Of a stretch of DNA of 37,538 nucleotides, positions 2,730 to 14,845 are shown piece after piece (position 1 is the first letter of the stretch; each line of letters opens with the position of its first letter). Location of the stretch: the NCBI RefSeq assembly GCF_011320225.1, contig NZ_JAAOEN010000021.1:1-37538 (forward strand), in the 5' to 3' direction. A program made the position numbers and the translations under genes. The notes beneath the pieces are model-generated. The model ran no database searches. It was given only the letters and a program-made list of their open reading frames with translations, and was not told the origin of the DNA. Origin of the DNA: Phytoactinopolyspora limicola. GTDB taxonomy: Bacteria; Actinomycetota; Actinomycetes; Jiangellales; Jiangellaceae.

Positions 2730-2735
2730 CCCGTA

Positions 2736-2779
2736 ACGTCCTGCAACGCGAGCGCGGGGACACTCGCCTCGCAGGACGC
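2736..2779. repeat. Palindrome, GCGTCCTGC family, copy 1
   Basis: Inverted repeat with arms CGTCCTGCAACGCGAG and CTCGCCTCGCAGGACG around a G-rich loop; the arms pair with a few mismatches. The segment is almost identical to the hairpin at 4343-4386, and the homology continues into the neighbouring oxidase 3' end, so this copy belongs to a duplicated block. Its original job was probably to terminate the oxidase transcript (minus strand). No T-run follows. Confidence 0.7.
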
Positions 2780-2801
2780 AAACGCGGTGGCGGCGGCGCC
2801 C

Positions 2802-2892
2802 TCAGCGAGTTGGGCTGAACGGTGCGAGCTCGGCCGGAGCCTGGCCGGTGGTCATCAGTTCCGCCAGGAGTTCTCCGGGTGGCGGGGCCGAG
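2802..2892 (-). pseudogene. Decayed C-terminal fragment of a DadA-like FAD oxidase
   Basis: On the minus strand, one frame reads GELLAELMTTGQAPAELAPF followed by S-P-T-R and a TGA at 2804-2802. This matches the C-terminus of the intact oxidase at 4405-5670 (GELLAELMTTGRAPTELAPF, then E-P-T-R, stop), with a few substitutions. Upstream, the L-G-P-A-T segment is recognisable but one extra C puts it out of frame. Homology ends at about 2892, where the downstream part of the VOC gene region begins. The fragment together with the adjacent hairpin (2736-2779) mirrors 4343-4494. It is therefore a diverged partial copy, too short to be functional. Confidence 0.8.
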
Positions 2893-2961
2893 CCATATCG
2901 GCGGCAACGTGGGCGATGAGTCGTCTTCGGCCTTCGCGCGAGAGCGGAGAATTCCGGTGGG

Positions 2962-3363
2962 TCATCTGGACTGCTGCCCCCGAAGTTCTCCGCCGATGAC
3001 CCAGAGATGGCCGAACGGGTCCCTTACCCGTCCTTGCCGCTTGCCGTAAGGGCGTTCCTCGACTGGAATTACAAGTTCAGCCCCGTGCTTGACCATGCGG
3101 TCGGCTGTGGAGTCGGGGTCCGACACTGTGAGCATGATCAGAACCGGTGAGCCTCCCATCGATCCTGGATCGTTCCAACCCCATGCCTGCACGCTCTGCG
3201 CTAGGGCGAAAGTAACGGAGTCGAGCGCGAGTTCAGCGTGGTTGACTACGCCGTTGTCCTCGGCGACTCTGAGGTTGACCCGGGCGTGGAGCGCTTGGGT
3301 GTAGTACGTGATCGCTGCGTCGGCATCGGAGACCAGCAGTTTGGGGATCAGTTGGACATTCAT
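2962..3363 (-). CDS. VOC (glyoxalase/bleomycin resistance) family protein, PhnB-like
   Basis: A 133-residue vicinal-oxygen-chelate fold protein of the PhnB-like type. The start ATG 3363 gives MNVQLIPKLLVSDADAAITY, the usual beginning of this family (two beta-alpha-beta units; A-A-I-T-Y-Y-T-Q is the first helix). The C-terminal unit ends RVRDPFGHLWVIGG, the classic closing motif. The family includes isomerases, dioxygenases and antibiotic-binding proteins, so the substrate is open. The gene follows the AraC regulator on the same strand with only 10 bp between them and is probably co-transcribed with it. The pair is flanked by duplicated oxidase 3' ends, so it may be a mobile or recombined cassette. 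Confidence 0.8.
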   Translation of the reverse strand: MNVQLIPKLLVSDADAAITYYTQALHARVNLRVAEDNGVVNHAELALDSVTFALAQSVQAWGWNDPGSMGGSPVLIMLTVSDPDSTADRMVKHGAELVIPVEERPYGKRQGRVRDPFGHLWVIGGELRGQQSR

Positions 3364-3373
3364 GTCTCCATGG

Positions 3374-4174
3374 TCATGGGGTGGGGCGTTGCCAGCCTTG
3401 TAGATTTCGGCCCTCTTCATCCAGCCACGAGGTCGGAGTCGTGTCCATGAGGCTGCGGAAGTCACGCACAAGGTGACTCTGATCGTGGTAGCCCGACTCT
3501 GCTGCCACATGGGCCCAGGAGACCGCCCCTGCACCGGCGCGACTCACCGCGTGGCCCAGACGCGCCACGCGGGAGGCGAATTTGGGGGTGATCCCCAGCG
3601 AGTGCAGCATCACCTTCCGCAGTCGCCGGGAGCTCTGATGCGCCTGGCGCGCCAACTCCTCAACCGACACCGTCCCTTTCCCGACACTGATCAGGTCCAG
3701 AGCTCGGAGGGCGTCCTCCGGTCCGATGCCGTGATCATCCCGGGGCAGCTGCTCGAGCAGTCTGACGCGCAAGACATCCTCTCGGTGGTCGACCGGATGA
3801 TTCGCTAGTTCCTCAGACAGCGAGTTCGCCCACGGAAGAACTGCATCAGTGCTGACACCGCCCGCGTCGACTTCGCTGAGCGGTACCCCGGTCAGACGTT
3901 GAAATGCCGCTGGAGACAACTCGACGTAGGCCGTTTGCTGTTGTGAGCGCAGTGTGGTGGTCGGAGTCGCGACATCCGGTCGCATCAGCCCCGCGACAAA
4001 CCCCTGGGCCTGCTGGACCTGTGCGTCGTACCGGACCTCGATCGGGCCGTCCAGGCTCACGATCAAGCGAGCTGAAAGTGCCGGGACCGCTCGATGCAGG
4101 CGAGCCTGACCATCGTGCTCACTGACGGCCACTACGCCGATGCCGGCGGCCCGACATGACTGACGCAACTCCAC
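3374..4174 (-). CDS. AraC family transcriptional regulator
   Basis: A 266-residue regulator with a beta-rich N-terminal sensing region (residues 1-150, including LIVSLDGPIEVRYDAQ and FVAGLMRPD) and a C-terminal double helix-turn-helix. The HTH part runs roughly from 165 to 255: VSVEELARQAHQSSRRLRKV, then WAHVAAESGYHDQSHLVRDF, the second being the hallmark of AraC domains. The start used is GTG 4174; no in-frame ATG with a good ribosome binding site is visible, so the start is uncertain by a few codons. The VOC gene lies directly downstream and is its likely operon partner. The ligand is unknown. Confidence 0.85.
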   Translation of the reverse strand: MELRQSCRAAGIGVVAVSEHDGQARLHRAVPALSARLIVSLDGPIEVRYDAQVQQAQGFVAGLMRPDVATPTTTLRSQQQTAYVELSPAAFQRLTGVPLSEVDAGGVSTDAVLPWANSLSEELANHPVDHREDVLRVRLLEQLPRDDHGIGPEDALRALDLISVGKGTVSVEELARQAHQSSRRLRKVMLHSLGITPKFASRVARLGHAVSRAGAGAVSWAHVAAESGYHDQSHLVRDFRSLMDTTPTSWLDEEGRNLQGWQRPTP

Positions 4175-4342
4175 GGTCGCATTGTCACATTCTCCTGCGG
4201 CCCGACCAGCAGGGCAGCCCGGGGGCGCGTCAACAACCTCATGTCCCGCAACACTTAGGCGTAGAACGACGGCGAGATCAACGCACTCACCACCACCAAC
4301 CGGAGGAATATCGCTGCGCCGCAGGCTGGTACCGCCTCGCTA

Positions 4343-5762: not shown

Positions 5763-7337
5763 GTGAGTTCACCCATCGACATCGTGGCCGCCCTGGGCGC
5801 ACCGCTACTGCACGTCGTCGTCGCCGGGGCGGATCGCGGCGACGTCCGTGACGTGTTCCTCGCCGAGCCACACGACGCGGTCCCCGGCGAGCCCGGCGAT
5901 CTCGTCCTCGGCATCGGCGTGCCGGGTCTGGAGGAAGCGGTCCAGCTAGTGCGGCGGTGTGCCGCGTCGGGGGCAGCCGCGGTGATCATGCGGACGGCCG
6001 TCGCCACACGTGCTCCGGTGGTCGAAGCGGCGCAAGAATCTTCCATCACCCTCGTCGCGGCCGGTGACGGAGTGCCGTGGGCGCATCTGGTGTGGCTGTT
6101 GCGGGGGGTGATCGATCGGTCGCCACCGTCGTCCGGCACCTCGTCGGTCACAGGCACGTCGCCGGGCACCTATGACGATCTCTTCGTACTCGCGGATACC
6201 GTTGCCGCGATCGTCGGTGCACCGGTGACCTTCGAGGACAGCGCATCACGCGTCCTGGCCTATTCGTCCGGGCAGGGGGAGACGGACACCGCCCGGGTGG
6301 CGACGATCGTCGGCCGCCGGGTCCCCGAGGATGTCGCCGCACACTACCGAGCCCGCGGGGTGTTCCGCCGCCTCGTCCGCTCCGACGAGCCGTTTCTTGT
6401 TCCGGCCGGACCGGACGGCACGTTGCCGCGGCTGGTGGTCCCGGTCCGGGCCGGCGGGGAATGGCTGGGTTCCATCTGGGCCGTCGTCGATGGGCCTGTT
6501 GACGACGCGACAACGGCTGAGCTGCGCCGGGCCGCGTCCGTGCTCGCGCTGCACCTGCTGCGGTTGCGGGCACAGGCCGACATCGCTCGGCGGAGCGCGA
6601 CCGAGCTGATCCGCTCCGCGCTGTGGCAGTACACACCGGAGCGGGTCATCGGTCAGGCGTTGCCTGGTGCGGGGCCGTGGCGCGTCGTCGCGCTCAGCGC
6701 GCCGGAGAGCCACGAAGCCGACGAGCACCTGCAGGTGTGGGAGACGGTGCTGCGCCGGCACGGCTGGCGACGGGCGGTGCTGGCCGATCTGGCCGGCGAC
6801 GTCTTCGCGGTGGTCGACGCCGAGGGCGGTGACGAGCCCGGCACGTGGGCGTGGCTCCAAGCAGTGGTTCACGAGATGGACGACGCCGGCCAAGGTTGGG
6901 TGGCGGTGGCCGGAACACCAGCGATGGCCGCGGAGCTGCCCCGCTCGCGGGTGGAGGCGGCCGAGCTGTTGAGCATTGTGCGCTCGGGACAAGGCACCGA
7001 TCCGGCGATGTCGGTCGAGGGCGCGTGGGACGCCGTTGTGCTGCACCGTGTGCTCGGCGCCGTCGACCTCGCCGTTCCGGGAAGCCCGCTGCGAGTGTTG
7101 CTCGACCACGACGCCGACCACGGCACCGCCTACGTGCCGACACTCGGAGCGTGGCTGGAGCACTATGGCGAGCCGCTGCGGGCCGCCAAGGTGCTCATGA
7201 TCCACCCCAATACGCTGCGTTATCGCATGCGCCGGCTCCTCGACGTCGTCGACATCAACGTGCACGACCCTCGTCAGCGGCTCGCCCTTTACCTTCAGAT
7301 AGAGGCGGCGCGAAAGGCGACCGAGCGGGCGACCTGA
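5763..7337 (+). CDS. PucR family transcriptional regulator
   Basis: A 524-residue regulator of the PucR/CdaR type. Residues 1-125 resemble the N-terminal PucR ligand domain (I-V-A-A-L-G-A-P-L, with an A-A-V-I-M-R segment). Residues 140-265 look like a GAF-type sensing domain (LFVLADTVAAIVGAPV, LVVPVRAGGEWLGSIWAVVD). The C-terminus (about 455-515) holds the PucR helix-turn-helix: GAWLEHYGEPLRAAKVLMIH, then P-N-T-L-R-Y-R-M-R-R-L. Members of this family often activate genes for purine, amino-acid or other nitrogen-source breakdown. The GTG start at 5763 has no strong ribosome binding site. Divergence from the DadA-like oxidase suggests that gene as a target. Its last 83 bp overlap the convergent amidase gene. 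Confidence 0.88.
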   Translation: MSSPIDIVAALGAPLLHVVVAGADRGDVRDVFLAEPHDAVPGEPGDLVLGIGVPGLEEAVQLVRRCAASGAAAVIMRTAVATRAPVVEAAQESSITLVAAGDGVPWAHLVWLLRGVIDRSPPSSGTSSVTGTSPGTYDDLFVLADTVAAIVGAPVTFEDSASRVLAYSSGQGETDTARVATIVGRRVPEDVAAHYRARGVFRRLVRSDEPFLVPAGPDGTLPRLVVPVRAGGEWLGSIWAVVDGPVDDATTAELRRAASVLALHLLRLRAQADIARRSATELIRSALWQYTPERVIGQALPGAGPWRVVALSAPESHEADEHLQVWETVLRRHGWRRAVLADLAGDVFAVVDAEGGDEPGTWAWLQAVVHEMDDAGQGWVAVAGTPAMAAELPRSRVEAAELLSIVRSGQGTDPAMSVEGAWDAVVLHRVLGAVDLAVPGSPLRVLLDHDADHGTAYVPTLGAWLEHYGEPLRAAKVLMIHPNTLRYRMRRLLDVVDINVHDPRQRLALYLQIEAARKATERAT

Positions 7338-8706
7338 GCGTCGGCTCGACAGCAGCCGACGTCCACAACACGCGCTGGTCGGTCCCCGGCGCCCCGGAGA
7401 GGGACAGCCCGAACGGCACGCCGTCGGACGTCGCGCCCGCCGGGAGCGTGAGGCTGGGGAGGTCGACGAAGCTCGTGATCATGGTGTTGCGCAGCACCCG
7501 CCGGTTGGTGTCGGCGAAGACCTCCGGATCGGACTCCACCGCGGCAACGTGTGGCGCCGTGACCGGCACCGTCGGGTAGACAAGGAGGGTGTGGCCGAGC
7601 CGTTCACGGACGTGTCGTCGCAGCTCCGTCCGCCGGGCCAGGAGGGTCCGATGGTGGTTCTCCAGGACCGTCCGCCCGGCCAGCAGCCGGCTCCGGATCG
7701 GCGGATCGATCAGCGCGGCGTCAGGGCCGTGGACGGCGGAGGCACGGGTGCGGTACGCCTCCGCCGCGACGAGTGTGCCGACCTCCTCGAAGAGCCGCGC
7801 GACGTCGTCGAACTCGGGGATCCGGACGGTTCGGATCGTCCAGCCGTCGCGGCGTAGCTCGTCGAGCATCAGCCCGAACTGGTCGGCGACGGGGGCGTCG
7901 AGATGGTCGATGAGCGGGCCGCGTGGGACGACGAGGTCGCCCGGCTCCGGTGGTTGTGTGCGCCCTACCGGCACGGCATCGCCGGCCAGCACCGCGTCGA
8001 GGGTGATGGCGTCGAGGACGGTGCGGGTGATCGGTCCCACCGTGTCCAGCGTCGGCGCCAGGGGAGTCACGCCCGCCAAACTCACCCGTCCGTGGGTGGG
8101 CCGGAAGCCGACCAGGCCGCAGAACGACGCCGGCACCCGGACCGAGCCGGACGTGTCGGTGCCGACCGCACCCGGGACCACACCCACGGCTACGGCCACC
8201 GCGGACCCGGACGACGACCCGCCCGGCACCCGCCCCGGAACCAGGGGATGAATGGGGGTGCCGAAATGCTGGTTGGTGCCGAGCCCGGAGAAGGCGAACT
8301 CACTGAGGTTGGTCTTGCCGATGGTGATCAGGCCGGCAGCGGCAGCGTTGCGGACCACGTCGGCGTCGGCGTCCGCCTCGGCCATGTTCCGGGTGGTGGC
8401 GGAACCAGCCGTCGTACGTATGCCGCGGATGTCGACGAGATCTTTCCAGGCGATGGGCACCCCATCCAACGGCCCGGCCGGTGCGCTGCGCTGAACCCGC
8501 CGCACGGTGGCCGCCGCTTCGAGCCGGGCGCGTGATGAGGTCAGGCTGATGAACACGTGCTCGGCCGCGGCGTCAGCCGCCTTGGCCAGGCACTCGTCGG
8601 CCAACACCACCGGGTCGAGCCGACCGGCGGCGATCTCCCGGCCGAGCCAGAGCGCGCTTCCTTCAGCCGGGTGAAGGCTGGGCGGAGCTCCCCGGGCGCC
8701 GGTCAT
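7255..8706 (-). CDS. Amidase signature family protein
   Basis: A 483-residue amidase with the Ser-cisSer-Lys triad visible: Lys88 in GVPIAWKDLVD, the Gly/Ser-rich strand PGGSSSGSAVAVA (about 161-173) carrying the cis-Ser, and the nucleophile Ser188 in GTDTSGSVR. It hydrolyses a carboxamide to acid plus ammonia or amine. The substrate is unknown. The start ATG 8706 overlaps the stop of the upstream flavin reductase as ATGA, so the two are translationally coupled; an in-frame extension to 8814 would run into the reductase gene and is not supported. The C-terminal 35 residues are Arg/Pro/Ala-rich and lie over the 3' end of the PucR gene, so a natural tail or a worn 3' end are both possible. Confidence 0.87.
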   Translation of the reverse strand: MTGARGAPPSLHPAEGSALWLGREIAAGRLDPVVLADECLAKAADAAAEHVFISLTSSRARLEAAATVRRVQRSAPAGPLDGVPIAWKDLVDIRGIRTTAGSATTRNMAEADADADVVRNAAAAGLITIGKTNLSEFAFSGLGTNQHFGTPIHPLVPGRVPGGSSSGSAVAVAVGVVPGAVGTDTSGSVRVPASFCGLVGFRPTHGRVSLAGVTPLAPTLDTVGPITRTVLDAITLDAVLAGDAVPVGRTQPPEPGDLVVPRGPLIDHLDAPVADQFGLMLDELRRDGWTIRTVRIPEFDDVARLFEEVGTLVAAEAYRTRASAVHGPDAALIDPPIRSRLLAGRTVLENHHRTLLARRTELRRHVRERLGHTLLVYPTVPVTAPHVAAVESDPEVFADTNRRVLRNTMITSFVDLPSLTLPAGATSDGVPFGLSLSGAPGTDQRVLWTSAAVEPTLRSPARSPFAPPLSEGKGRAADEGRAR

Positions 8707-9326
8707 CGGCCCGCCGCCGGCACGTCGTCGCCCGACACCGGAGCTAACGGCGGAAGCTCGACGAGGTGCTCGACGGGACTGAACGACGCACCAACTCGGC
8801 CCATGGGCTGCCATCGTAGGACGTCGACGTGGCGGCGTGCATCGAACAGGGCGGCGTCGACGTGCCAGAGCACGATCCGCCCAATGACAATCGTGTCCCC
8901 GCCCGGCTGGATGATCTGTTCCAGCTCACATTCCATGCTGATCGGCGCGGCGGCTACCAGCGGCACGCTGATCCGGTGCGCCGGCCGGGCCGCGACACCG
9001 GCCACGGCGAACTCGTCCACCTCGCTGGTGTATTCCTCCGACGTCGCACACATCCGGGCGGCCATATCCGCGGTCACGACGTTCACCGCGAACTCACCCG
9101 TGGACCGGATGTTGAGCAGGCTGTCCTTCTCCCGGCCGTCGTCGCGGCGTTCCATGGTGATCGAGACCATCGGCGGAGACGTGGAGACGACGGTGAAGAA
9201 GCTGAACGGAGCCAGGTTCCGACGGCCGGATGCGCTCACGGTCGACGTCCACGCGATAGGGCGCGGGTTGACGCTGCCGAACAGAAGCCGGCGCGTCGTC
9301 TCTCGCACGCGACGACGATGTCGCAC
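8703..9326 (-). CDS. Flavin reductase (DIM6/NTAB) family protein, N-terminus apparently truncated
   Basis: An FMN-binding split-barrel protein of the flavin reductase type. Strong family marks are GSVNPRPIAWTSTVSASG, RNLAPFSFFTVVSTSPP and STGEFAVNVVT. Such proteins reduce FMN with NAD(P)H for a partner monooxygenase or act as flavin-dependent reductases. The first family block normally lies 20-30 residues into the protein. Here the only upstream residues are V-R-H-R-R-R-V-R-E-T-T, read from a GTG at 9326 that is already inside the coding region of the divergent deacetylase. The 5' end therefore seems lost. The stop overlaps the amidase start (ATGA). Activity is uncertain because the truncation could remove the first strand and the normal promoter. 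Confidence 0.75.
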   Translation of the reverse strand: MRHRRRVRETTRRLLFGSVNPRPIAWTSTVSASGRRNLAPFSFFTVVSTSPPMVSITMERRDDGREKDSLLNIRSTGEFAVNVVTADMAARMCATSEEYTSEVDEFAVAGVAARPAHRISVPLVAAAPISMECELEQIIQPGGDTIVIGRIVLWHVDAALFDARRHVDVLRWQPMGRVGASFSPVEHLVELPPLAPVSGDDVPAAGR

Positions 9327-10055
9327 CAGGCCTACGGGCCCGACGTCGGCGTGCCCAGGATCCTCGACCTACTCGACGAGTTCGAGCTTCTCGCCACCTT
9401 CTTCATCCCCGGCTGGGTCGCCGAGCAGCGGCCCGGCCTGGCCGCCGGGATCGTCGAGCGTGGGCACGAGGTGGCGCACCACTCCTACAGCCACCGACTG
9501 CCCACGTCGATGGCGGCGGGGGAGGAGCGGGTGGACTTCGAGCGGGCCATGGAGGTGTTCGCCGCCCAGGGCATCGAGATCGTCGGGCACCGTGCGGCCG
9601 GCTGGGCGACCACGGGGGAGACAGCCGGCCTGGTGGCAGCACACGGCCTGCTGTACGACTCGTCGTTCATGGGCGACGACCGGCCTTATCTGATCGAGTC
9701 CGGTGCGGGAACCGTGGCGGAGTTGCCCGTGCACTGGTCCCTCGACGACTGGGAACAGTACGCATTCCTGCCGGAGCCGCACGTGGGTTCGGTGATCGAA
9801 TCGCCGGTTAAGGTGCTGGAGATGTGGCGCGCGGAACTCGACGCCATGCGGCGCTACCGGTGCCTGTTCAACCTGACCTGCCACCCGTTCCTGACCGGCC
9901 GGCCATCCCGGATGGAGTCGCTGCGTCGGCTGATCGAGTTCGGCCTGGAAAGCGGGGACGTGAGCTTTATGCGGTGCCGTGACGTGGCACGACGCGCGGC
10001 GGCCGATCCAGCCTTGGTCACCCGTCGAGTTTCGCCGCCGGGCATTGTGCCGTAA
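9318..10055 (+). CDS. Polysaccharide deacetylase (NodB-type) family protein, N-terminus apparently missing
   Basis: The protein matches a family of NodB-fold amidohydrolases from SHQAYGPDVGVPRILDLLDE onwards: LLATFFIPGWVAEQRPG, the metal-binding H-x-x-x-H of VAHHSYSHRLPTS, and SSFMGDDRPYLIE. Complete relatives start about 30-40 residues earlier with a strand ending in Asp-containing motif 1 (S-F-D-x-D-type), which carries the catalytic base and a metal ligand. That part is absent: upstream in frame the sequence is the antisense of the flavin reductase. ATG 9318 is the best remaining start but has no ribosome binding site. The frame stays open upstream. The gene is probably non-functional or fused by deletion. 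Targets of relatives include chitin-like polymers and small ureido or formamide compounds. Confidence 0.7.
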   Translation: MSHQAYGPDVGVPRILDLLDEFELLATFFIPGWVAEQRPGLAAGIVERGHEVAHHSYSHRLPTSMAAGEERVDFERAMEVFAAQGIEIVGHRAAGWATTGETAGLVAAHGLLYDSSFMGDDRPYLIESGAGTVAELPVHWSLDDWEQYAFLPEPHVGSVIESPVKVLEMWRAELDAMRRYRCLFNLTCHPFLTGRPSRMESLRRLIEFGLESGDVSFMRCRDVARRAAADPALVTRRVSPPGIVP

Positions 10056-10236: not shown

Positions 10237-10962
10237 TTGGATCTGACGTTCTGGATTCTCACGGGCGGGGCGGTTCTTCTTGGCGCAGCCGTCCAGGGCA
10301 GTGTCGGACTAGGCCTTGGCCTGGTTGCCGCGCCCGTGGTCACGCTGCTGGATCCGACGCTCATGCCGGGGGCGATGCTGGTGACGACCGCGGCACTGCC
10401 GGTGCTGAGCTTGTCCTCGGAGTGGCGGCATGCCGACCTGCGTGGCCTTTCCTGGGCGTTGGTGGGCCGGTTCGTCGGGACCATCGGAGGTGTCTGGGTG
10501 GTCGCGGCGTTGGCGCCGAACACGCTGGCACTGGCGGTTGGGATCATGGTTCTGGTGGCCGTCGCCCTGACCGTTTTCGCCGTACGCGTCCGGTCGACTC
10601 CGACGACGTTGACCGCGGCCGGGGTGATCTCCGGTGTCACCGGGACGGCGACGTCCATCGGTGGGCCACCGGTGGCGTTGGTCTACCAGCACGACCCTGG
10701 TCCGCGAGTGCGCTCGACACTGGCGGTGTACTTCTTGATCGGCACGTTGGTATCGCTGGGCGCGCTCGCGATAGGTGGCCAACTGCACGAGCGGGAGGTG
10801 TGGGTAGGGCTCGGCTTGTTCCCGTTCATCATCGCCGGCTACCTCATCGCTCGCCCGCTGCGGCGGGTGGTCGACGGCGGTCACCTGCGCGCCGCGTTGC
10901 TCGTCGTGGTGACGATCTCCGGGCTCGTTCTGATCGCACAGTCGGCCTTCATGTCGGGATGA
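10237..10962 (+). CDS. TauE/SafE family permease (anion exporter)
   Basis: A 241-residue integral membrane protein with about 7-8 hydrophobic segments and the TauE/SafE double-repeat pattern: GAAVQGSVGLGLGLVAAPV in the first half and GVISGVTGTATSIGGPPVAL in the second. Family members move sulfite, sulfonates or organic anions across the membrane. The start is a TTG at 10237, which gives L/M-D-L-T-F-W-I-L as in relatives; no better start or clear ribosome binding site is present. It lies 181 bp after the deacetylase on the same strand and may export or import a product of the neighbouring amine/amide genes, but that is inference. A large palindrome follows the stop by 2 bp. Confidence 0.8.
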   Translation: MDLTFWILTGGAVLLGAAVQGSVGLGLGLVAAPVVTLLDPTLMPGAMLVTTAALPVLSLSSEWRHADLRGLSWALVGRFVGTIGGVWVVAALAPNTLALAVGIMVLVAVALTVFAVRVRSTPTTLTAAGVISGVTGTATSIGGPPVALVYQHDPGPRVRSTLAVYFLIGTLVSLGALAIGGQLHEREVWVGLGLFPFIIAGYLIARPLRRVVDGGHLRAALLVVVTISGLVLIAQSAFMSG

Positions 10963-10964
10963 CT

Positions 10965-11060
10965 CGACGGTGGAAGCTTCTACCGGTTGACGTTGGAGGG
11001 TTCTACCGGCCAGGACCGGTAGAACCCTCCACCGTTGGCCGGTAAAACGCTCCACCGTCG
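10965..11060. repeat. Nested 96-bp palindrome after the TauE gene
   Basis: Two inverted pairs are nested. The outer arms are CGACGGTGGAAGCTTCTACC and CGTTTTACC-like sequence read on the other strand (ending 11060). The inner arms are TGGAGGGTTCTACCGG (10994-11009) and its perfect reverse complement ending at 11031, separated by 6 bases. The whole can fold into a stem of about 45 bp. It starts 2 bp after the TauE stop and can act as a strong terminator. The repeated unit GTTCTACCGG within each arm looks like tandem duplication before inversion. Confidence 0.75.
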
Positions 11061-11309
11061 GCATAACGAGCCAGCCGGGCAGTCGCGCCCAGTCCGTTGA
11101 CACGGGCGTCTCCGCTGCCGCCCGACCAGCCCGTCCTCATCCTGTCGAGGATGCCTGCGGATGTGCTCGTGGCTCTGGCGCCCGATGTCGGATTCGATCA
11201 CCACGAGGTCGCCGCGTTGTGCGGGGCGTGTCGGCGAAGATCATAGTTGAGCCCAATCTTGCCGCTCGAAGGACCAGTTCGATCCTGATGTTGCTATCCT
11301 AGAGACCAG
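11061..11309. other. Intergenic sequence before the ATPase island
   Basis: No complete gene is seen. A short plus-strand frame (about 11110-11247) reads P-D-Q-P-V-L-I-L-S-R-M-P-A-D-V-L-V-A-L-A and ends in TAG, which resembles the tail of a worn-out protein gene, but I cannot name it. From about 11240 on the composition becomes more A/T-rich. The sequence TATCCT at 11296-11301, just before the ATPase gene, could be a -10 element, in which case the transcript would start very close to ATG 11310. Confidence 0.3.
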
Positions 11310-12662
11310 ATGGGCCAGAATCTTGTCAGAATGAGAGCAGGTTCAGGCATGCTTGATGTGCTCCGCGAACTAATCCTCGACGCTCAGGACGCGCCGCTAG
11401 ACGTCGGTATACCCCGCCACGTAGATGTGCAGACCGTGCCAGGCAAGGCCACCGTCTGCATAGGGGTACGGAGAAGCGGGAAATCAACCTATATGCGGCA
11501 GTTGATGAGTCGGCTACTGGAAGCTGGGACTCCCCGCGAGAACATTCTTCATCTCAACTTCTTCGATGACCGGCTACACGCAATGAGGCATGGCGATCTT
11601 GGAGTGATTTCGGAAGCCTACTTCTCGCTGTACCCGGAGAAGAAAAACAAGGAGACGGTCTACTTCTTTCTCGACGAGATTCAGGTGCTACCCGGCTGGG
11701 AACCGTTCGTTGACCGCCTCATGCGTACCGAGAAGAGCGAGGTCTACCTCACCGGCTCCTCGGCTCAGATGTTGTCGACTGAAGTGGCTACCCAGATGCG
11801 TGGTCGCGCACTGTCTTGGGAGATCTTCCCGTTTTCCTTTGCGGAGTTCATGGACTATCACGGTGTGGATTACTCCGCTCCTCGCTCAACGAGGAAGCGA
11901 CTGTCGGTGCAGAAGAGTTTCGAGCATTTCTGGCAGACTGGCGGCTTCCCAGAGGTCGCCGGTGTCGATCGTCGCTTGCGCACCATGATTCACCAGGAGT
12001 ACCTGACGGCGGTCCTCTTCCGTGACCTTATAGAGCGGCACGACATTAGCCACCCCCAGGCGGTGGCCGACCTGACTCATCGCCTGATCGACAATGTGGC
12101 CTCACTGCAGAGCATGAACAGCCTCACCGGGTACTTAAAGTCCTTGGGACACAAGGTCTCGCGCAACACGGTCGCAGACTACGTGACGTGGCTGGAGGAT
12201 GCCTTCTTCCTTTTTCAGGTGCGCCTGTTTGACGCTTCACTGGCCAGATCGAACGTGAACCCCAAGAAGATCTACTGCGTAGATCACGCACTGGCTGTCT
12301 CCGTGGGATCCGGAATTCTCGTTAACACTGGGCACCTGCTGGAAAACCTGGTCTTTACCGCCCTGCGTCGAGCATCGCCTGAGATCTTCTACTACCGGAC
12401 GAAGAGCGGGAAGGAGGTCGACTTCGTTGTCCGGCTGCAGAGAGAGAAGCGCATGCTGGTCCAGGTGTGTGACTCGATGGCGAACCAAGCAACCCGAAAC
12501 CGTGAAGTGGGCGCGCTCTCGGAAGCCATGAATGAGCTAGATATCCGTGAAGGGACAATCGTCACGCGCGCCGAACGCGAGCAGTTAGATGTTGCTGGCG
12601 GAATGATCAACGTGACACCGATATGGATGTTCTTGCTATCGCTGAGTTCCGGACGAAACTAG
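11310..12662 (+). CDS. AAA family ATPase with DUF4143 domain
   Basis: A 450-residue P-loop ATPase of the AAA_14/DUF4143 group. Walker A is GVRRSGKST (52-60) and Walker B is VYFFLDEIQ (117-125). LTGSSAQMLS follows as sensor region, and the C-terminal DUF4143 part contains a PD-(D/E)xK-like strand, SGKEVDFVVRLQREK (about 365-379). The function of these proteins is not established; they are scattered in bacterial and archaeal genomes and often lie on islands. Start candidates are ATG 11310, 11331 and 11349; I keep the first. Codon use is clearly more A/T-tolerant than in neighbours (for example AGG, ATA, TTA and CTA codons), which suggests transfer. No partner gene is evident. Confidence 0.85.
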   Translation: MGQNLVRMRAGSGMLDVLRELILDAQDAPLDVGIPRHVDVQTVPGKATVCIGVRRSGKSTYMRQLMSRLLEAGTPRENILHLNFFDDRLHAMRHGDLGVISEAYFSLYPEKKNKETVYFFLDEIQVLPGWEPFVDRLMRTEKSEVYLTGSSAQMLSTEVATQMRGRALSWEIFPFSFAEFMDYHGVDYSAPRSTRKRLSVQKSFEHFWQTGGFPEVAGVDRRLRTMIHQEYLTAVLFRDLIERHDISHPQAVADLTHRLIDNVASLQSMNSLTGYLKSLGHKVSRNTVADYVTWLEDAFFLFQVRLFDASLARSNVNPKKIYCVDHALAVSVGSGILVNTGHLLENLVFTALRRASPEIFYYRTKSGKEVDFVVRLQREKRMLVQVCDSMANQATRNREVGALSEAMNELDIREGTIVTRAEREQLDVAGGMINVTPIWMFLLSLSSGRN

Positions 12663-12936
12663 CGCCGCAACGTCGAATTGGTACGGTGACGTCGATCTAT
12701 TCTTCTTGGGAGTCGGCTGCCTGTAGTTGCATGATGTTTGGCGGTAGACACAACATTGCGCGATCATCAGGTGACGGTGGGTCTCCTATCTGGTCGGGGG
12801 GCACCGGCGCAGGCGCTAAGACGGCAATTGGGCTACATGCACATAGCCAGAGGTATTTCACGAGGACAGGAGACGCTCAGTTGCCCCTTGGTGGCTTTAG
12901 CCTTGTTTTCTAAGATTTGGCAAATAAGCTGGTTGG
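12663..12936. other. Intergenic sequence within the low-G+C island
   Basis: Between the ATPase and the lipoprotein the sequence is A/T-richer than the window average. Short open frames exist in several phases, but none has the character of a protein, a good ribosome binding site or a recognisable motif. It presumably carries the promoter of the lipoprotein gene. Confidence 0.4.
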
Positions 12937-13449
12937 ATGATGCGTGGGTTCAGCGTTCGGGCAGCGGTCATCGTAGTGTCGGTGGCCCTTGTAGTGACAG
13001 CATGTGGTGGTGATGACTCGGCGGTGAGCAGCAGCGGCGATGTAGGGCGGGCGGCTAAAGAAGCTGAGTTGAGCGACGAGACGGGTGTGGTTCAGGCGTG
13101 GGAGTTCACCTCCGACGTCGAACTGTCCGAAGGGTCTGACTTCGGTTACCTAGCCGATGCGGCGGCGGAGTTCGCCGGAGCTAACGAGGCTTGGTTGGTA
13201 GAGACAGATACACCATGGGATCTCCGCTTGGTGTGGTCTGCTCTGCCTTGCCAAACTGCACCGACCTTGAGCGTAGAGACGACGGATGGCGAGATTTCGG
13301 TGATTAGGTTGGATCCGGGACCGGTCGTTTCGCCGGACTCCGAGCATCCCGGCTGCGAGGACATGGAAGTTCGGCATGCGATAGACATGAGGACTTCTGA
13401 GCCGTTGGCGGCCAAGCCGGAGATCGTGGTCGACACACCTAAAAAATAG
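12937..13449 (+). CDS. Putative lipoprotein of unknown function
   Basis: A 170-residue protein with a clear lipoprotein signal: a basic start (M-M-R-G-F-S-V-R), the hydrophobic core AAVIVVSVALVV, and lipobox V-T-A-C with Cys23 as the acylation site, followed by G-G-D-D. The mature part is acidic. It contains two further Cys (A-L-P-C-Q-T and H-P-G-C-E-D) that could form a disulfide outside the cell. I do not recognise a domain. It lies in the same lower-G+C stretch as the ATPase gene, 274 bp downstream on the same strand, but a functional link is not supported. Confidence 0.7.
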   Translation: MMRGFSVRAAVIVVSVALVVTACGGDDSAVSSSGDVGRAAKEAELSDETGVVQAWEFTSDVELSEGSDFGYLADAAAEFAGANEAWLVETDTPWDLRLVWSALPCQTAPTLSVETTDGEISVIRLDPGPVVSPDSEHPGCEDMEVRHAIDMRTSEPLAAKPEIVVDTPKK

Positions 13450-13698
13450 TGGCCCGCAGTACGTGGATGCTGCCTTTGTCGTCTTGTTCTCTGCAAAGCT
13501 ACGTCACAGTTAGCGTGCTGTGAAGATCCTTGTGTTGATGATGGACCGAGGAAACCTCCAGGGTCGAGCGGCTAATCCCAGTTGGCTAGCCGCACCTATT
13601 TTATCCGGCTCTTCACAGTTGAGGGTGTAGCGCGGGTCGGCGTCTAAAACTGACGGAGATACTTGACATCCGGTCCCCTTGGTCATTAAGGAGATCGG

Positions 13699-13839
13699 GT
13701 GAGTGAACCTCAGTTGGACCGCCAGGTGCGTCGGCGCCTGGCGGTCCTACGTCATGTCAAGGAAGTCACCGGAAACGTGGCGATGACGACACGACTTGTT
13801 GTTTGCGCTGCGCCTTGCCGGTGTTTGGAGCGCTCCTGA
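13699..13839 (+). pseudogene. Truncated transposase N-terminus (IS481/IS3-type helix-turn-helix)
   Basis: A 46-codon frame from GTG 13699, preceded by AAGGAGA at 13688-13694, begins V-S-E-P-Q-L-D-R-Q-V-R-R-R-L and continues AVLRHVKEVTGNVAMTTR. From memory this is the usual start of actinobacterial IS481-like/rve-type transposases (L-R-H-V-x-E-V-T-G-N-V-A-M-T), after which C-R-Y-Y-G-I-S-R should follow. Instead the frame goes to unrelated sequence and stops at TGA 13837-13839. The catalytic DDE domain is absent. The promoter-proximal part is preserved well, so the break may be fairly recent. Confidence 0.55.
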
Positions 13840-14108
13840 GGGGGTTCGCATCACACGGGGATGCGGTATGTGGCCCAACACGATGCCGCATCGTTGACCG
13901 CTGTACCAGTAGGTTTGGAACGGACCATTGATCCGTCCTTGCTCAAGATCGAGAATTGGGTGGACCGGTCAAGAGTCAAGATCCGCGCCGATGTGGCCAT
14001 GACAGGCTGACTGTCCTCGGAAACCGGGGCTAAGAGCGCACGGCCCCCAGGCGGTCGCCAAGGTCAAGCGGGCGTTCCGGGCGGGCCAGCAGCGGGTGCG
14101 CCGGCCCT

Positions 14109-14795: not shown

Positions 14796-14845
14796 CTTGC
14801 GTCCTGCGGGGTGAGCGCCCCGGCGCTCGCCCCGCAGGACGCAAG
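14796..14845. terminator. 50-bp hairpin between CurA-like gene and rnpB, GCGTCCTGC family, copy 3
   Basis: Arms of 24 bp, CTTGCGTCCTGCGGGGTGAG plus GCGCC and its reverse complement, pair with one mismatch around a 2-base loop. It stands 30 bp after the stop of the minus-strand oxidoreductase and 45 bp before the 5' end of rnpB, a good place to stop read-through into the RNA gene. The outer arms (GCGTCCTGC/GCAGGACGC) are the same as in the hairpins at 2736 and 4343, while the inner part differs. Confidence 0.75.

Follow-up and report, generated by a model that had tools for sequence, protein, structure and literature searches.

Two truncated enzyme genes at a putative deletion junction in Phytoactinopolyspora limicola and their intact cluster in a sister genome

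The locus and its two-armed alignment

The window, meaning the whole stretch of 37,538 nucleotides that was analysed, comes from Phytoactinopolyspora limicola (NCBI RefSeq assembly GCF_011320225.1, contig NZ_JAAOEN010000021.1, positions 1 to 37,538, forward strand). Around position 9300 it contains an amidase gene and two shortened genes facing each other, for a flavin reductase and for a hydrolase of the deacetylase fold:

7255..8706, minus strand: intact amidase gene (PF01425; Pfam match of 1.2e-82 reaching the profile end; 76% amino acid identity to G004:C6 of the sister genome)
8703..9301, minus strand: flavin reductase remnant (Flavin_Reduct, 3.2e-26; the nucleotide alignment with the sister ends at 9301)
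9302..9326, minus strand: apparently accidental new N-terminus of the reductase (GTG 9326 or GTG 9308), running antisense into deacetylase DNA, from frame analysis
9301..9305, no strand: putative deletion junction, placed by the sister alignment, a per-base comparison and a likelihood scan
9305..10055, plus strand: polysaccharide-deacetylase/cyclic-imidase-like remnant (86% amino acid identity to the sister; first usable family start at ATG 9318)

Ninety-nine genomes were compared, namely the source genome and 98 relatives, and five of them belong to Phytoactinopolyspora, the source genome included. Matches to the deacetylase (E <= 1e-20) are present in 10 of the 99 genomes and matches to the reductase (E <= 1e-15) in 18, the source genome being counted in both cases. 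Apart from the source genome, the only match within the genus was Phytoactinopolyspora alkaliphila CGMCC 4.7225 (G004), with 86% amino acid identity for the deacetylase and 80% for the reductase, and its locus L114 is used here as the sister reference. Regions with DUF1989 and Old-Yellow-Enzyme-type (OYE) genes in two further genomes (G002 and G003) were dropped as outgroups because the deacetylase relative there is distant (29-30%). In plasmid records, the reductase query gave 293 matches, every one below 60% identity.

The window aligns with the sister in two arms. The left one, window 7361-9301, corresponds to L114 7944-9893 with 80.5% nucleotide identity in a gapped alignment, and the right one, window 9305-10039, corresponds without gaps to L114 15138-15872 with 84.8% identity, while the rest of the window gave no match in 39 kb of G004 DNA. 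In the sister, the reductase and deacetylase genes share a contig at a distance of 5.25 kb, and the gap between the aligned arm ends is 5,244 bases. The switch between the arms is abrupt, at 9301-9305 in the per-base comparison: in 15-base bins starting at 9285, 9300 and 9315, identity to the left arm is 14/15, 5/15 and 4/15, and identity to the right arm is 5/15, 9/15 and 15/15 (random 15-mers give a mean of 4.2/15, and at least 11 in 0.04% of 20,000 draws). A simple likelihood scan ends the left arm at 9301 and begins the right arm at 9305, with 9302 fitting nearly as well. The longest word common to the two ends of the sister, compared over 150 bases on each side, has 9 bases, and none is shared at the breakpoints. 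The junction is carried by one known genome, and the full arrangement has been seen in one close sister.

What the two genes have lost

Relative to the sister proteins, the reductase lacks 14 residues and the deacetylase 34 (38 if its start is ATG 9318), which bears out the proposal of the sequence-only reading that both lose their N-termini at one point. The head-to-head overlap of coding regions that it described depends on the start codon chosen for the reductase, whose frame terminates at 8703 and extends upstream without interruption to GTG 9326: with this start the two frames overlap by 9 bases, and with the alternative GTG 9308 there is no overlap.

The reductase is without residues 1-14 of the sister protein, Thr15 being its first intact codon. 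It passes the Flavin_Reduct profile (PF01613) with 92.7 bits against a gathering score of 27, covering profile positions 5-147 of 153; judged from these matches, the reductase domain is nearly whole and the deacetylase is the more damaged of the two. The sister reductase resembles the nitrilotriacetate monooxygenase component B type (3BPK), to which it aligns from 4 to 182 with 2.7e-25, and the window copy differs from this type of flavin reductase in missing its first 14 residues and the coupled gene upstream. These 14 residues were compared with the sister and in two PDB alignments: the one with 3BPK takes in most of them (from residue 4), and the one with 4Z85 begins at residue 19, outside them.

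In the deacetylase, the lost residues 1-34 include TLTFDVDAE, and the sister protein is full-length, with its stop at L114 15888. An FDxD-type block stands about 23 residues before a conserved methionine in all of the 84 homologues that were scored (85 loci were given, 84 of them scorable and 83 distinct; 76 were recognized by the first pattern and 8 by eye), and the lost N-terminal block is aligned within a solved relative, PDB 3RXZ. The aspartates of motif 1 (TFDxD), which would fill the catalytic and metal roles of CE4 motif 1, are present in the sister and gone from the window copy. The histidines of motif 2 (HSxxH), presumably those of the CE4/PuuE type, are kept in the window as HHSYSH, and H54, H55, Y57 and H59 are among the columns conserved to at least 97%. 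Because the FDxD-type motif block is lost, the remnant is probably inactive. The window deacetylase still matches Polysacc_deac_1 with 2.2e-12 (Pfam), and the start of this match was dropped as proof of truncation: since it lies at profile position 16 in the window copy and in the intact sister alike, Pfam alone does not prove the loss. The source genome holds no intact copy of the gene, its two other deacetylase matches having 36% and 35% identity over about 103 amino acids. In Mycolicibacterium brisbanense, a single in-frame stop interrupts the otherwise well-conserved frame of the deacetylase gene (L017:3878-4735); either this copy too is inactivated or the sequence is in error.

The remnant frames remain open. 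Pairwise dN/dS against the sister is 0.085/0.543 (0.16) for the deacetylase, 0.117/0.455 (0.26) for the reductase and 0.160/0.585 (0.27) for the amidase; such low pairwise values would mean either that the deletion is recent or that some product is still used. With 69 outgroups, 17 amino acid changes of the deacetylase are assigned to the window lineage and 7 to that of the sister (p = 0.064, short of significance at 5%), a further 13 being assignable to neither, and at sites conserved to at least 90% there are 3 changes in the window lineage and 0 in that of the sister. The open frames and these counts fit a fairly recent loss and do not prove relaxed selection.

The intact cluster and the origin of the junction

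Between the two arms, the sister locus contains four genes:

L114 9930-11420, minus strand: permease of the cytosine/purine family (PF02133; 6.4e-29)
L114 11468-13039, plus strand: PucR regulator (2.9e-20)
L114 13131-13805, plus strand: DUF1989 protein (4.2e-47)
L114 13913-15040, plus strand: Old-Yellow-Enzyme-type oxidoreductase (1.4e-72)

In the alignment with the sister, the window lacks all four together with the starts of both truncated genes. In G004, a 47-base gap (by the longest frames) lies between two diverging arms, permease-reductase-amidase and PucR-DUF1989-OYE-deacetylase, and coupled overlaps join permease and reductase (GTGA), reductase and amidase (ATGA), and OYE and deacetylase (GTGA); given these overlaps, both beheaded genes are downstream members of coupled arms. 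The gap between permease and PucR is probably a divergent control region, lost with the deletion. The window's ancestor would have had the same four genes, since the order permease-PucR-DUF1989-OYE-deacetylase also occurs in L055 (Amycolatopsis marina) and an OYE gene lies upstream on the same strand in 66 of 80 deacetylase loci.

The concern raised from the window sequence, that an amidase dependent on the reductase for coupled translation may also be off, is a reasonable one, as the amidase start overlaps the reductase stop as ATGA in the window and in the sister. Because it is coupled in this way to a headless reductase, the amidase, although intact itself, is probably silent, an orphan.

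A single deletion in the window lineage, with ordinary pseudogenisation of the cluster, is very probably the explanation. One event of about 5.24 kb would have joined reductase codon 14/15 to about codon 35 of the deacetylase-fold hydrolase, and with repeat-free ends the joining would have proceeded by end joining. Without its motif-1 aspartates the hydrolase would be dead, and the reductase and the coupled amidase would have lost their promoter and translation start, so that the cluster would be unused and decaying. A deletion by end joining fits the breakpoints because they share no repeat, and this mechanism may plausibly have been available, since two Ku genes of the source genome score above the Pfam threshold. 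A homology-driven deletion was rejected, as no common word of 10 bases or more occurs within 150 bases of either end. The sequence-only reading had attributed the loss to one deletion that removed both 5' ends and a shared promoter. Its single event agrees with the single breakpoint and with the 5,244 bases that separate the arms in the sister; the loss of shared control holds by inference, as the control gap appears to have been removed, but the two genes are not neighbours there, four whole genes lying between them.

The same reading had offered a local assembly collapse as its alternative, in which pieces that are unlinked or 5 kb apart were wrongly joined and the chromosome is intact. The source assembly is indeed a draft of 40 contigs, but it is rated 99.45% complete, DUF1989 gives no match in it, and an omitted unique 5.2 kb should persist as a contig about 80% identical to the sister. 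None was found: the missing stretch was not recovered among the 40 of 433 first-look candidates that were scored, the best match being 65% over 980 bases in the permease-bearing part of the query. As the breakpoints also share no repeat that could have prompted the joining, and the missing stretch was not found elsewhere, an assembly error is very unlikely, and erosion of the same cluster in a neighbouring genome (G001, see below) makes a real loss plausible. The lack of matches to the stretch and to DUF1989, together with a best OYE match of 39% in the source genome, likewise leaves a translocation of the segment to another place in the genome unsupported.

Two other explanations are less probable still. 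An element might have inserted by transposition or site-specific recombination and left again, taking flanking DNA with it; the region is mobile on a longer time scale, because the flanks of the cluster in G004 differ from those in the source genome and G001 and a TauE-like gene on the right flank found no match in any of the four other Phytoactinopolyspora genomes, but at most about 3 bases (9302-9304) are unassigned between the arms and no inserted element lies there, which makes this route highly improbable. That both genes are natural short forms, working from starts near 9308-9326 with nothing missing, can hardly be believed, even if ATG 9318 encodes an internal methionine conserved in the outgroups (M1, in a column of at least 97%) and the Flavin_Reduct domain is nearly complete. 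Homologues that naturally start at the same residue had been named as a possible objection, and for the deacetylase this is not the case: the upstream block is present in each of the 84 homologues scored and also in 3RXZ, and the 86% identical sister protein is full-length. Near the junction, 0 consensus promoters were found against 0.1 expected, in a scan of little power at the high GC content of actinobacteria.

Pseudogenes truncated by deletion are generally familiar from bacterial catabolic clusters in decay. The deletion proposed here resembles them in that what appears to be one event cost both genes their 5' ends and removed the genes between them, an intact relative exists and a neighbouring genome is more decayed. 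Nothing essential sets it apart; two genes on opposite strands are beheaded at one point, and their frames may overlap by accident. The annotation would accordingly change from two short, overlapping-looking enzyme genes to remnants.

Erosion in a related genome, likely role of the cluster, and flanks

Judged by the PucR regulator that adjoins the cluster, the nearest genome is G001, with 92% amino acid identity against 64% in G004. Its DNA matches the window in five pieces between 115 and 7427 (four at 88-92%, one at 80%), with no match for window 2894-4267; beyond 7427 it matches at 7750-7799 only, and then from 14339 at about 73-86% up to the end of the G001 DNA that was compared. The amidase of G001 is here a C-terminal remnant (residues 421-477), and neither reductase nor deacetylase gave a match in this genome at E <= 1e-15 and E <= 1e-20, respectively. 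From these matches and the amidase remnant, it is probable that the cluster adjoined the PucR regulator in the common ancestor and was then lost to different extents in the source genome and G001. The PucR ortholog of G001 (G001:C2:604791-606358; L128, L131) is spread over two reading frames, with an overlap near residues 232-241, and is therefore probably frameshifted, unless this is a sequence error. Separately, window 2731-2893, 4342 and 14799-14843 all align to one short stretch of G001 (L135-L137 joined, around 18360), which suggests a dispersed repeat.

Neighbouring genes were counted in the best 80 of 380 deacetylase loci, the sister included, within no more than 4 kb on either side, which makes all counts lower bounds. 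DUF1989 occurs in at least 69 of these loci, OYE and a PucR-type regulator in at least 66 each, amidase in at least 25, reductase in at least 5 and permease in at least 4; the amidase and PucR matches are mostly at 35-57% and need not be orthologues. Ten loci, which with few exceptions belong to the most distant of the 80, show none of these neighbours, and this speaks against a fixed set. DUF1989, OYE, deacetylase-fold hydrolase and PucR nevertheless stand together in the majority of these 80 nearest loci.

Against PDB, the sister hydrolase matches 3RXZ (2e-72), HpPgdA (3QBU, 4e-28) and the PuuE allantoinase (3CL6, 3.5e-16), and it lies far below the NCBIfam PuuE cut-off (67.8 vs 424.6 bits). 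According to a report on the fungal cyclic imidase HxnM, this enzyme is structurally similar to HpPgdA and acts in nicotinate breakdown alongside HxnT, an OYE protein, and HxnN, an amidase (PMC9304392). The sister hydrolase with its OYE and amidase neighbours parallels HxnM with HxnT and HxnN within the cyclic imidase/PuuE branch, from which the window copy differs by the loss of its FDVD block. On the strength of the hydrolase's relatives and of this parallel, a reasonable inference for the intact cluster is the opening of a small nitrogen ring of the cyclic imide or ureide type, with the amidase releasing ammonia. A narrow literature search found no named substrate for the set of DUF1989, OYE, hydrolase and PucR, and no listed title or abstract opening in the genus literature concerns this cluster. 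Tentatively, the PucR-DUF1989-OYE-hydrolase(-amidase) cluster could represent an unassigned actinobacterial route that opens a reduced nitrogen heterocycle; if so, the source genome and G001 would offer, in their beheaded and eroded copies, natural loss mutants of that route.

On the right flank, GC content is 0.56-0.59 in window 11001-14000, which contains an AAA_14/DUF4143 ATPase gene, and 0.68-0.69 in the flanking kilobases; window 10237-14000, with the TauE-like exporter and the ATPase gene, looks like acquired DNA. Just past the TauE-like gene, window 10965-11060 holds a 45-base inverted repeat, 82% complementary, with a 6-base spacer and made of units of 21-23 bases; it could serve as a terminator or represent a small repeat element.
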